Source of the DNA: Lebetimonas natsushimae
Lineage (GTDB): Bacteria; Campylobacterota; Campylobacteria; Campylobacterales; Nautiliaceae
Assembly (NCBI RefSeq): GCF_002335445.1
Contig: NZ_BDME01000001.1
Location: 620,001-684,000, forward strand
Direction of reading: 5' to 3'
Length of the DNA stretch: 64,000 nucleotides
In this document: positions 21,008 to 24,060 of the stretch, one piece after another
How the letters are laid out: each line of letters starts with the position of its first letter
Position numbering within the stretch: the first letter of the stretch is position 1
The notes under the pieces: model-generated
Told to the model about the DNA's origin: nothing
Database searches by the model: none
The model's input: the letters and a program-made list of their open reading frames with translations, nothing else
Program-made: the position numbers and the translations under genes

Positions 21008-21023
21008 TCTTCATTCTCCATTA
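20988..21023 (-). repeat. A-rich repeat copy spanning the glyS-thiS junction
   Basis: On the minus strand the glyS stop TAA runs into TAATGGAGAATGAAGAATGC and ATAATGGAAAATTAAT. The copy covers the 13-base gap and the first codons of thiS, apparently supplying the thiS start codon. Confidence 0.55.
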
Positions 21024-22994
21024 AATAGTTATTTCCTTAATGTCTGCAATATCCAGAAATTCTTTGTAAATTGAAGCAATCAGGCTTTTTCTGTTGTTTT
21101 TAATTTTTTCATCTTCTACATTTACCATTACATTATCAAAGAATTTATCAATAAGGGGCTTAAGAGAAATTAAAAAATCAAGTTTTTTTTCTAAATCTGT
21201 ATAATTTTTTACTTTATTAAATTCATTCCATAACTCTTTTTCTTCATCTTTTTCAAAAAGAGATTCATCTACATTGATTTTATTTAAATCAAAATCTTTT
21301 ACAATGTTTGCAACCCTTTTAAAAGTAACTGAAAGGTCTTTAAAATCTTTTGAATTTACTACTTCATTTAGTAATTTTGTTTTTTTATCAATTTCAAGGA
21401 TATTACTCTCACCTGTGGCTAAGACTGCCCTGATAACAGATGGATTAACATTGTAAAATTTATAAAGTCTCTCATAAATAAATTCAAGCAGCTGATCTGT
21501 ATTTAAATTTTTATAAAGAGGTTTTATTTTTTCTAAAATCTCTTTAAAATCAAGAGGTATTTTATTTTCGAGAGAAACTTTGATTATGTGATTTGCCGCA
21601 CGTCTGAGACCGAACGGGTCTTTATTTCCTTTTGGAATTTTACCGATGCTAAAAAGTCCTGCAAGAGTGTCAAGGTTTCTTGCTATATTAAGCAGGGCTG
21701 AGGTTTTATTACTTGCAGTGTCAGTGTACTGTTCTTTTATGGCAGTTGCAATTTCTTCATCAACTCCCGCAGCTTTTGCATAATAATAACCCATAATTCC
21801 CTGAAGTTCTGTAAATTCATAAACCATTTCAGTGAGGAGGTCAGCTTTTGCCAAATTTATGGCTTTAATCAATTTTTCTTTATCTGTATTAAATTTATTA
21901 GCCAAGATTTCCGCTATTTTTTCTTCTCTTTTAACTTTATCATAAAGACTTCCTAAATTATCCATATACACTATATCTTTTAATCCCTCAATAGAAAGGC
22001 CGTTTTTTAAATCGTTTTGATAGAAAAATAAGGCATCTGATAGTCTGGCCCTTAGTACTCTTTCATTTCCGTTGATAATTTTTGAAAAATTATCTGTATA
22101 TGCATTGCTGACAACTACAAATGCATTTGTTAATTTCCCGTCTTTAAATACAGGAAAATATCTTTGATGTTCCTTCATTGAGGTTATAATAACTTCAGGA
22201 GGCAATACTAAAAATTCTTCGTCAAACTTACCAAAAAGTGCTGTTGGGTATTCTGTAATTGCGACAATTTCTTCAAGTAAATCTTTATCTATTTCAACTT
22301 TAACACCATTTTCTTTTTCTATTTTGTCAATGTCTTTTAGGATTTTTTTTCTTCTCTCATCCTGATATAAAACAACCCCTTTTTTATCAAGTTCACAAAA
22401 ATATTTTCCCGCAAAATCAATAAAAATTTTATCTTTAAAAAGCCTGTGTCCGTAAGTGAAATTGCTTGAAGTAGCGCAGTATTTATTAAAAATAACTGCT
22501 TCATCTTCAATCATTGCTAAAATCCATCTGATTGGGCGGATAAATTCCGCCTCACAGTTTCCCCATTTCATTGTTTTGCCGAAATTTAAACTTTTAAGCC
22601 ATTTTTCAATCATCTCTGGGATTAGTTCTTTTGATTCTTTTCCTTTAATTTCTTTTTTAAAATATAAAAATTCTTGGTTTCCTTTTGATTTATATTTTAC
22701 TTCATTTGGGGATATCCCGCATTTTTTTGCAAATCCCTCAATCGCCTTTGGATTTTTTTCAGCTATTGTTTTTGGCGCCCCCCAGATTTCTTCTGTTTTG
22801 TCTTCCTGTTTTGTAGGGAATTCCCTATGCCAAAGAGTTAGTCTTCTTGGCGTATAGAAAAAATCAAAATCTGTTGCTAAATCATATTCTTCTAAAATAT
22901 TCAGCCATTTTTTTTCTATATTTGGAAGTTCTTTAAGCAGTGGAATTGCAGGCAGTTCCTCAACTCCAATTTCAATAAGTAAAGGTTTAAGCAT
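21021..22994 (-). CDS. glyS: glycyl-tRNA synthetase beta subunit
   Basis: The tRNA-binding beta subunit of the bacterial alpha2beta2 glycyl-tRNA synthetase; the alpha subunit gene is not adjacent. The 657 residues are slightly below the usual 690. The N-terminus LLIEIGVEELPA is the family signature. Other motifs are FYTPRRLTLW, EIWGAPK, FIRPIRWILAM, an HD-like segment and KDPFGLRRAANHIIK. It diverges from a structured element at 23052. thiS follows 13 bases downstream. Confidence 0.96.
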   Translation of the reverse strand: MLKPLLIEIGVEELPAIPLLKELPNIEKKWLNILEEYDLATDFDFFYTPRRLTLWHREFPTKQEDKTEEIWGAPKTIAEKNPKAIEGFAKKCGISPNEVKYKSKGNQEFLYFKKEIKGKESKELIPEMIEKWLKSLNFGKTMKWGNCEAEFIRPIRWILAMIEDEAVIFNKYCATSSNFTYGHRLFKDKIFIDFAGKYFCELDKKGVVLYQDERRKKILKDIDKIEKENGVKVEIDKDLLEEIVAITEYPTALFGKFDEEFLVLPPEVIITSMKEHQRYFPVFKDGKLTNAFVVVSNAYTDNFSKIINGNERVLRARLSDALFFYQNDLKNGLSIEGLKDIVYMDNLGSLYDKVKREEKIAEILANKFNTDKEKLIKAINLAKADLLTEMVYEFTELQGIMGYYYAKAAGVDEEIATAIKEQYTDTASNKTSALLNIARNLDTLAGLFSIGKIPKGNKDPFGLRRAANHIIKVSLENKIPLDFKEILEKIKPLYKNLNTDQLLEFIYERLYKFYNVNPSVIRAVLATGESNILEIDKKTKLLNEVVNSKDFKDLSVTFKRVANIVKDFDLNKINVDESLFEKDEEKELWNEFNKVKNYTDLEKKLDFLISLKPLIDKFFDNVMVNVEDEKIKNNRKSLIASIYKEFLDIADIKEITI

Positions 22995-23031: not shown

Positions 23032-23037
23032 TATAAT
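23032..23037 (+). promoter_or_regulatory. -10 box in front of the structured element
   Basis: TATAAT ends 14 bases before the inverted repeat at 23052. Initiation 6-8 bases downstream would therefore give an RNA whose 5' end lies just before the outer helix. This placement suggests that the element is transcribed as RNA. Confidence 0.5.
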
Positions 23038-23051
23038 ATATAAACAAAAAA

Positions 23052-23201
23052 GACACTGACTAAATGCACTCAACAAGAGTGTAAATTTTTTAACGCTAAA
23101 TAAAAGCTAAGAAGTATTAACTCACTTTGTTCAAACAAAATTTTTTTTAAGCTTTTATTTAGTTAAAATTTGCAATTGTTTTACTTTATTTAATCAGTGT
23201 C
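23052..23201 (+). ncRNA. long imperfect-palindrome RNA, candidate 6S-like RNA
   Basis: A 150-base segment in the only sizeable gene-free gap folds almost end to end. The outer helix is GACACTGACTAAAT with ATTTAATCAGTGTC. A side hairpin CACTC-AACAA-GAGTG follows at 23067-23081. A long central arm AAATTTTTTAACGCTAAATA then pairs with TTTATTTAGTTAAAATTT, topped by the TTTGTT-CA-AACAAA hairpin. A TATAAT box sits immediately upstream. A closing stem, an asymmetric middle and an apical arm recall 6S RNA. A miniature transposable element with 14-base terminal inverted repeats is the main alternative, as is a structured leader of the downstream gene. Confidence 0.45.
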
Positions 23202-23217
23202 ATAAAAAAGAGGTTAT

Positions 23218-23625
23218 ATGAAACCGGATATTTTTGAAAAAAGAATTACAGTTTCAAAAGAAGATATAGATTTTAACGGGCATGTTAATAATCTGAAATA
23301 TCTTGAATGGATGATAAATGCAGCTATGGAGCATTCTGCAAAACTGGGATTTACCCCTGAAATTTATAAAAAAATAGGTGCGACATGGTTTGCCAAATCG
23401 CATCATATAGAGTATAAATTACCGGCATTCGAAGACGATAAATTAATAATAAAAACCTGGATTGATGAGGTTAAGAAAGTAACGTCAAAAAGAAAGTATG
23501 AAATTTATAAAAATGATAAATTAATATGTTTTGGAGAAACTGAATGGGTGTATGTGGATTATGAAACCCACAGACCTAAAAAAATATCTGATGGTGTAAT
23601 AAAAAAATATTTCAAGGGTGAATGA
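23218..23625 (+). CDS. acyl-CoA thioesterase, hotdog fold
   Basis: A 135-residue single-hotdog protein of the 4-hydroxybenzoyl-CoA thioesterase / FadM-YbgC type. The N-terminal block (ITVSKEDIDFNGHVNNLKYLEWM) carries the Asp-x-x-Gly-His-Val-x-Asn motif with the catalytic acid. The central strand (HHIEYKLPAFEDDKLIIKTW) and ending (FGETEWVYVDYETHRPKKI) are also typical. It hydrolyses some acyl-CoA; the substrate is unknown. The ribosome site is AGAGG. It follows the structured element by 16 bases and precedes the degenerate GGDEF gene by 18. Confidence 0.87.
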   Translation: MKPDIFEKRITVSKEDIDFNGHVNNLKYLEWMINAAMEHSAKLGFTPEIYKKIGATWFAKSHHIEYKLPAFEDDKLIIKTWIDEVKKVTSKRKYEIYKNDKLICFGETEWVYVDYETHRPKKISDGVIKKYFKGE

Positions 23626-23643: not shown

Positions 23644-24060
23644 ATGGATAAACTTCATGAACTTCCAAAAGAAAAATTGATAGAAATAATCAAATTATTA
23701 TACAGCAATATTATTAAAGACCCTTTTTATGATATTTATTCCAAATCTTTTTTTATTGAATATTTAAAAAATATTTTAGAGTTGTATAAAAGATATCAGA
23801 ATTTAAAAATAAATATTATTGTCTGCAGATTTGATGCAAATAAAATTAGTGAAATAAAAAGTAATTTAAGAAAAAGCGATTTATTTGCTAAATTTGATGA
23901 TGCTTTTGTAATTTTAGTTTTTCAGACAATGGAATCGGGACTTTTTAAAATTAAATCGAAATTGGAAAATATTTTAACGCAAAACTGTTATATTATTGAT
24001 GTAAACATTAAAGATACAATAAAAAACGTTATTAATAAAATTGAAGAAATTTCAAAATAA
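23644..24060 (+). CDS. small degenerate GGDEF-like protein
   Basis: A 138-residue soluble protein that I align by eye to the GGDEF domain of the nearby cyclase at 24724. DPFYDIYSKSFFIEYLKNIL matches the DxLTxLxNRxxF start, and INIIVCRFDANKISEI matches the LIMFDVDYFKKIND strand. RKSD (76-79) sits where the inhibitory RxxD site belongs, and FDDAF (84-88) replaces GGEEF. The nucleotide-gripping segment FGHDVGDKVL is deleted. It cannot be a normal diguanylate cyclase. A retained RxxD suggests a possible c-di-GMP binding role; this is inference. Confidence 0.6.
   Translation: MDKLHELPKEKLIEIIKLLYSNIIKDPFYDIYSKSFFIEYLKNILELYKRYQNLKINIIVCRFDANKISEIKSNLRKSDLFAKFDDAFVILVFQTMESGLFKIKSKLENILTQNCYIIDVNIKDTIKNVINKIEEISK

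Follow-up and report, generated by a model that had tools for sequence, protein, structure and literature searches.

What is the 150-bp imperfect palindrome at positions 23052–23201 of the window, the 64,000-nucleotide stretch of the Lebetimonas natsushimae genome analysed here? It occupies the greater part of a 223-base interval with glyS (glycine--tRNA ligase beta subunit; 21021–22994, minus strand) on its left and a gene of the acyl-CoA thioesterase family (4HBT_2; 23218–23625, plus strand) on its right, a gap already recognised as gene-free in a sequence-only reading. That reading favoured a structured RNA gene of the 6S type with its own promoter, and offered as the alternative a MITE with GACACTGACTAAAT terminal repeats. 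The comparisons below make it very probable that the palindrome is a copy of an IS1-associated MITE, inserted between the thioesterase gene's promoter and its start codon.

The palindrome and its locus

The limits first assigned to the palindrome are right and its fold lies far beyond that of dinucleotide shuffles, with a predicted RNA free energy of -40.2 kcal/mol for the plus strand (shuffle mean, -21.7; z -5.86; none of 200 shuffles folding as well) and -41.8 kcal/mol for the minus strand (z -4.47), and a DNA fold at z -3.6. The element is given on the plus strand, in the orientation of the family alignment (A1), has copies in its own and related genomes, and is non-coding, with no ORF of ≥40 aa overlapping it; a covariance model of the family (R1) scores it at 141 bits. 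The outer 14-base arms, GACACTGACTAAAT and ATTTAATCAGTGTC, were located as described and are paired at 13 of 14 positions. The left arm (23052–23065, plus strand) has exactly the sequence found at one end of the IS1-family element in the related genome G032 (L125, 1427–1440), and the right arm (23188–23201, minus strand) reads GACACTGATTAAAT in reverse complement (13/14). The long central arm is likewise present, and the apical loop AACTCACTTTGTTCAAACA (23119–23137, plus strand) is a variant of AACTCGCTNCGCTCAAACA, which also forms the apical loop of unrelated palindromes in many bacteria.

A CACTC/GAGTG side hairpin does occur at 23067–23081 and, followed by AATTTTTT, forms a terminator-like feature (23065–23083, plus strand), but the family alignment shows it kept in only part of the copies, and it competes with a better conserved CAACAA:TTGTT(T/G) pairing in the main stem. 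Terminator-like hairpins were found on the plus strand of 16 and the minus strand of 22 of 73 family copies, compared to 5–6% of shuffles (3–4 fold enrichment), and are thus a property of a minority of copies and not universal.

The TATAAT upstream of the palindrome (23032–23037, plus strand) is real, though its assignment to the palindrome does not hold. In another species of the genus (G001), TGTGCTATAAT stands directly before the same thioesterase gene and the MITE is absent, with GTGTAATTTTATCAAAATGTGCTATAAT leading straight into the gene, a comparison of occupied and empty site that rests on one orthologous site; G013 resembles G001 at this locus. Because the same promoter and gene occur in G001 without the element, TATAAT is the -10 element of the thioesterase gene, and the palindrome is therefore an insertion that separates this promoter from the start codon. 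An AAGAGG ribosome-binding site and ATG follow just after the element. Transcription of the thioesterase gene should begin immediately upstream of the element, so that the hairpin would form part of the mRNA leader and the copy would lie in the 5' untranslated region. Such a leader hairpin, together with the terminator-like CACTC/GAGTG and its T-run, may lower expression of the thioesterase. Downstream of the thioesterase gene, a 138-aa ORF (23644–24060) had no match in Pfam or NCBIfam.

Dispersed copies, insertion signature and an IS1-family partner

Several copies and target-site duplications had been named beforehand as the marks of a MITE, and both were found. By BLAST, the genome itself holds four clear copies, the one in the window and three full-length copies at 89, 75 and 71% identity, and relatives hold dozens, many of them within the same family. 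Copies also occur in two other families (genomes G032, G037, G054, G075, G080 and G286), and among named records the right arm is present in metagenome bins of Nautiliaceae and Campylobacterales. The distribution is patchy: of 298 genomes from across the phylum, a model built from 34 copies matches 15; no matches were obtained when the element was searched against plasmids by BLAST. The set analysed comprised 73 copies (139–245 bp), drawn from the host's own family and a few further families of Campylobacterota; only eight of these copies have an ORF of ≥60 aa covering >60 bp. Copies are intergenic and lie in both orientations to genes (26 ++, 16 --, 12 convergent, 11 divergent); an orientation bias was considered and set aside as weak (26 vs 16).

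Two subfamilies keep the hairpin core with outer arms that are wholly different and still complementary, one in G006 (L115-L118, L188-L198; CTAAAATTAACCACCC...) and one in G002 (L043, L047, L051, L199, L200; AGATGTTTAAAAT...); IS1-type ends were not found in either. A second MITE family in the same genus (146–211 bp) has the same GGCACTGACTAAAT ends and another interior (AACGGAAAAGTAAAAATATTACAGCG...), with loci in the window's own genome (L089:701–903 and L091:874–1077) and in G001 (L092-L094).

The terminal inverted repeats of the family are 14-bp ends, GRCACTGACTAAAT, and the window copy is flanked by ACAAAAAA (23044–23051) and ATAAAAAA (23202–23209), which agree at 7 of 8 positions as a target-site duplication whose 8-bp length is set from the family. 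Exact 8-bp direct repeats flank 10 of 38 copies, compared to 0.55% of mismatched flank pairs, with no exact repeats at lengths of 4–7 or 9–12 bp when lengths from 4 to 12 were compared in these copies. In the larger set, exact 8-bp duplications occur in 9 of 73 copies against 0.2% expected. The exact terminal repeat RRYACTGACTAAAT was present in 10 of 21 genomes searched, while a reversed-pattern control gave zero in all but one; some of these matches belong to the second MITE family (L089, L091-L094). Contigs of G024 (L081-L088, L109-L112) carry 14 exact GRCACTGACTAAAT-type ends, mostly near contig ends in the contigs examined, a pattern suggesting that the assembly was fragmented by a multicopy IS bearing such ends.

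Ends of this type belong to IS1-family elements in related genomes. G032, which also holds MITE copies (L055, L224, L225), has a 715-bp element with IS1-type ORFs (L125) whose ends are exactly GGCACTGACTAAAT and GACACTGACTAAAT. G002 has six copies of a 684-bp IS1-family element with perfect 14-bp ends (GGCACTGACCTAAA), each of the six with a distinct exact 8-bp duplication; a terminal-repeat match in the same genome (L099) abuts a C-terminal fragment resembling an IS1 transposase. A PF03400 search recovered the six G002 copies and single loci elsewhere. With the NCBIfam IS1 model the IS1-type proteins reach E 1e-8 and 8e-8 (the latter from L125 of G032), short of its strict cut-off, which makes them divergent relatives of IS1; with Pfam they fall at or just below the cut-off. 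No IS1 transposase was detectable by profile search in the window's own genome, so the partner is assigned from relatives and the window copy is probably stranded, and immobile, today.

Two other transposase types were considered and rejected. IS1595 elements have an 8-bp duplication and similar ends; their transposase domain, PF12762, is absent from the family's genomes. An IS5-type transposase (PF13737) beside a terminal repeat in G024 (L081) is a neighbour interrupted by the repeat and occurs in no other relative.

Taken together, the features tested for a MITE are present, the element being short, non-coding and multicopy, dispersed, bounded by terminal inverted repeats identical to the ends of an IS1-family element, flanked by duplications of a fixed 8 bp, and matched by an empty site. 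Its ends are most likely recognised in trans by an IS1-family transposase from a resident or past IS; such an enzyme would have cut out or copied the element and integrated it, with a stagger of 8 bp, into A+T-rich intergenic DNA. On the other side of the balance are the weak profile matches behind the IS1 assignment, the lack of a detectable IS1 transposase in the window's own genome, the subfamilies of G002 and G006 with other ends, and the covariation of the interior hairpin.

Covariation of the hairpin and competing explanations

The interior hairpin of a plain MITE need not be conserved, yet here it co-varies strongly. In an analysis of 41 pairs across 34 copies, pairing holds in 94% of cells and 22 of the pairs have changed on both sides, with 149 double-changed cells compared to 46 in shuffles and 9–29 in slid controls, and a covariation score of 0.31 compared to 0.15 and 0.05–0.08, respectively. 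On a tree, double changes fall on the same branch 49 times (mean, 8.3; maximum, 20 in re-paired columns), and bulges are kept across copies. Copies whose flanking duplication has eroded to the background level of 34% identity retain 76% agreement between the arms over the nine terminal bases; of 87 departures from the consensus, 53 have a mirror-image change in the opposite arm. The hairpin is conserved beyond the need of the terminal repeats, through selection on the fold or through template switching by which each arm corrects the other.

Whether the structure is under selection, as a folded DNA transposition intermediate or as a terminator or RNase III-type hairpin in transcripts, is an evenly balanced question, and selection of this kind would refine the MITE explanation and not replace it. 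The double changes well above controls, their concentration on single branches, the kept bulges, the agreement of arms whose flanking duplications have decayed and the enrichment of terminator-like hairpins all speak for a functional hairpin. Arm-to-arm template switching (quasipalindrome correction), however, could mirror changes without selection, copies with low duplication identity may be sublineages with other ends, and the terminator-like hairpins are confined to a minority of copies. Departures from pairing comprise 45 G-U and 34 A-C, or 33 and 34 once one pair is left out, so that a strand-specific RNA was rejected as the cause; this lack of strand preference points away from a single functional RNA strand and towards a symmetrical cause at the level of DNA. 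A hairpin that co-varies as strongly as a structured RNA with no strand preference is a good test of selection on folded DNA against template switching, and this MITE is a warning that covariation alone is no proof of a functional RNA.

The same strand symmetry counts against the stand-alone 6S-type RNA gene, a long bulged hairpin transcribed from its own promoter and binding RNA polymerase, which would account for the length, the long imperfect hairpin, the strong fold and the covariation but is highly improbable at this locus. An Rfam search of the window gave no match at the palindrome and only tRNA elsewhere, the five matches over the region at E 10 were rejected as chance-level (E 4–10) and none was 6S, and RF00013 had no match over the whole genome at E 10. 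By the RF00013 model the element is not a 6S RNA, though this null says little about whether the organism possesses one. The 6S RNA of Campylobacterota is located upstream of purD (PMC3847290), whereas the palindrome adjoins glyS and the thioesterase gene. Its dispersal in copies with target-site duplications and in both orientations to genes, and a promoter that is the neighbouring gene's, tell further against the 6S proposal, and the palindrome drops out as a candidate for a 6S RNA that is missing. An ordinary hairpin terminator or a chance palindrome in an A+T-rich genome has practically no prospect of being correct; it would draw on the low G+C, the T runs and the one terminator-like site, and is countered by a fold that no shuffle equalled, by homologous copies elsewhere and by the empty site in the sister species G001.

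The apical module and related elements

The IS1-associated MITE may itself be part of a wider bacterial class of palindromic mobile elements, defined by a conserved apical module rather than by the ends, a doubtful proposition at present and a lead, not a conclusion. In the proposed module, a co-varying stem is capped by the loop AACTC(R)CTN(Y)G(Y)TCAAACA, in many cases with CTAAAA...(T)TTAACG on its flanks. It turns up in combination with unrelated stems and different terminal repeats in Campylobacterota, in Fusobacteriota and in prophage contigs; such a class, if true, would imply a common trans-acting factor recognising the folded hairpin. Elements in G058, G166, G282, G159 and G194 keep the core with other ends, the shared part being CTAAAA-stem-AACTCGCTNCGCTCAAACA-stem-TTTTYTTAACG, with two mini-hairpins in place of the loop in G058. 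The MITE family's covariance model matches 126–129-bp palindromes in G166, G159 and G282 and 161-bp palindromes in G058, a Campylobacterota genome of 53% G+C. At least nine copies of the latter occur (L219-L222 and others), with GACCTTACGCAAAAT ends, a CTAAAAA...TTTTTTGAACG core and a T-shaped apex; in the four copies viewed, candidate duplications judged by eye are 7 bp in three and 8 bp in one, and the outer two bases vary but stay complementary.

The exact 19-base loop AACTCGCTNCGCTCAAACA occurs at least 80 times in viral or prophage contigs (L228-L307). Among 20 distinct contexts, chosen by the motif itself, 10 have abutting complementary arms of ≥6 bp, compared to 0.2% of controls; in L228, among others, the CTAAAAA and TTAACG flanks have exchanged places. 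The loop is rare in Campylobacterota (3 of 121 genomes), and a badly designed core pattern with a fixed 7-base gap matched one genome. A plasmid of Ilyobacter polytropus (L308) has loop matches at nine places; an integron attC origin of the core was rejected, the one Ilyobacter loop region viewed containing no cassette array. Ten loop loci had no Rfam match apart from tRNAs, and the loop was not recognised in the literature searched.

Among known systems, the MITE is closest in its ends to IS1-family insertion sequences (NF033558 / PF03400), which are present in related genomes, share the 8-bp duplication and have a terminal repeat that is identical (G032) or one indel apart (G002), but it differs from them in having no ORF and an interior unrelated to that of the IS. 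To 6S RNA (RF00013) the likeness is confined to size and a long bulged hairpin; the window element has no model match, is multicopy and mobile, and is without its own promoter. Rickettsia palindromic elements (RPEs) have a comparable size range and occur inside genes. They too are short palindromic repeats with terminal inverted repeats and a long hairpin, with the target-site duplication marked '?' (PMC2229807), whereas the window family has 8-bp duplications and intergenic copies. Correia/NEMIS, ERIC, RUP and other bacterial MITEs are alike in a length of 100–200 bp, terminal inverted repeats, target-site duplication, A+T-richness and a long stem-loop in transcripts (Delihas 2007, PMC2229807). 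Most MITEs in that review have TA termini, in contrast to the GRCACTGACTAAAT ends and 8-bp duplication found here, and the terms 'IS1' and 'compensatory' do not occur in it. An open-access literature search joining Nautiliales with MITEs found no paper. Long stem-loops are familiar among bacterial MITEs (Delihas 2007, PMC2229807; review PMC10969869), and cases of a MITE linked to its cognate IS are known too, one being in Sulfolobus (PMC3718332); the window element represents a new, IS1-associated MITE family of this known kind, documented with an identifiable IS1-type partner in hydrothermal-vent bacteria.
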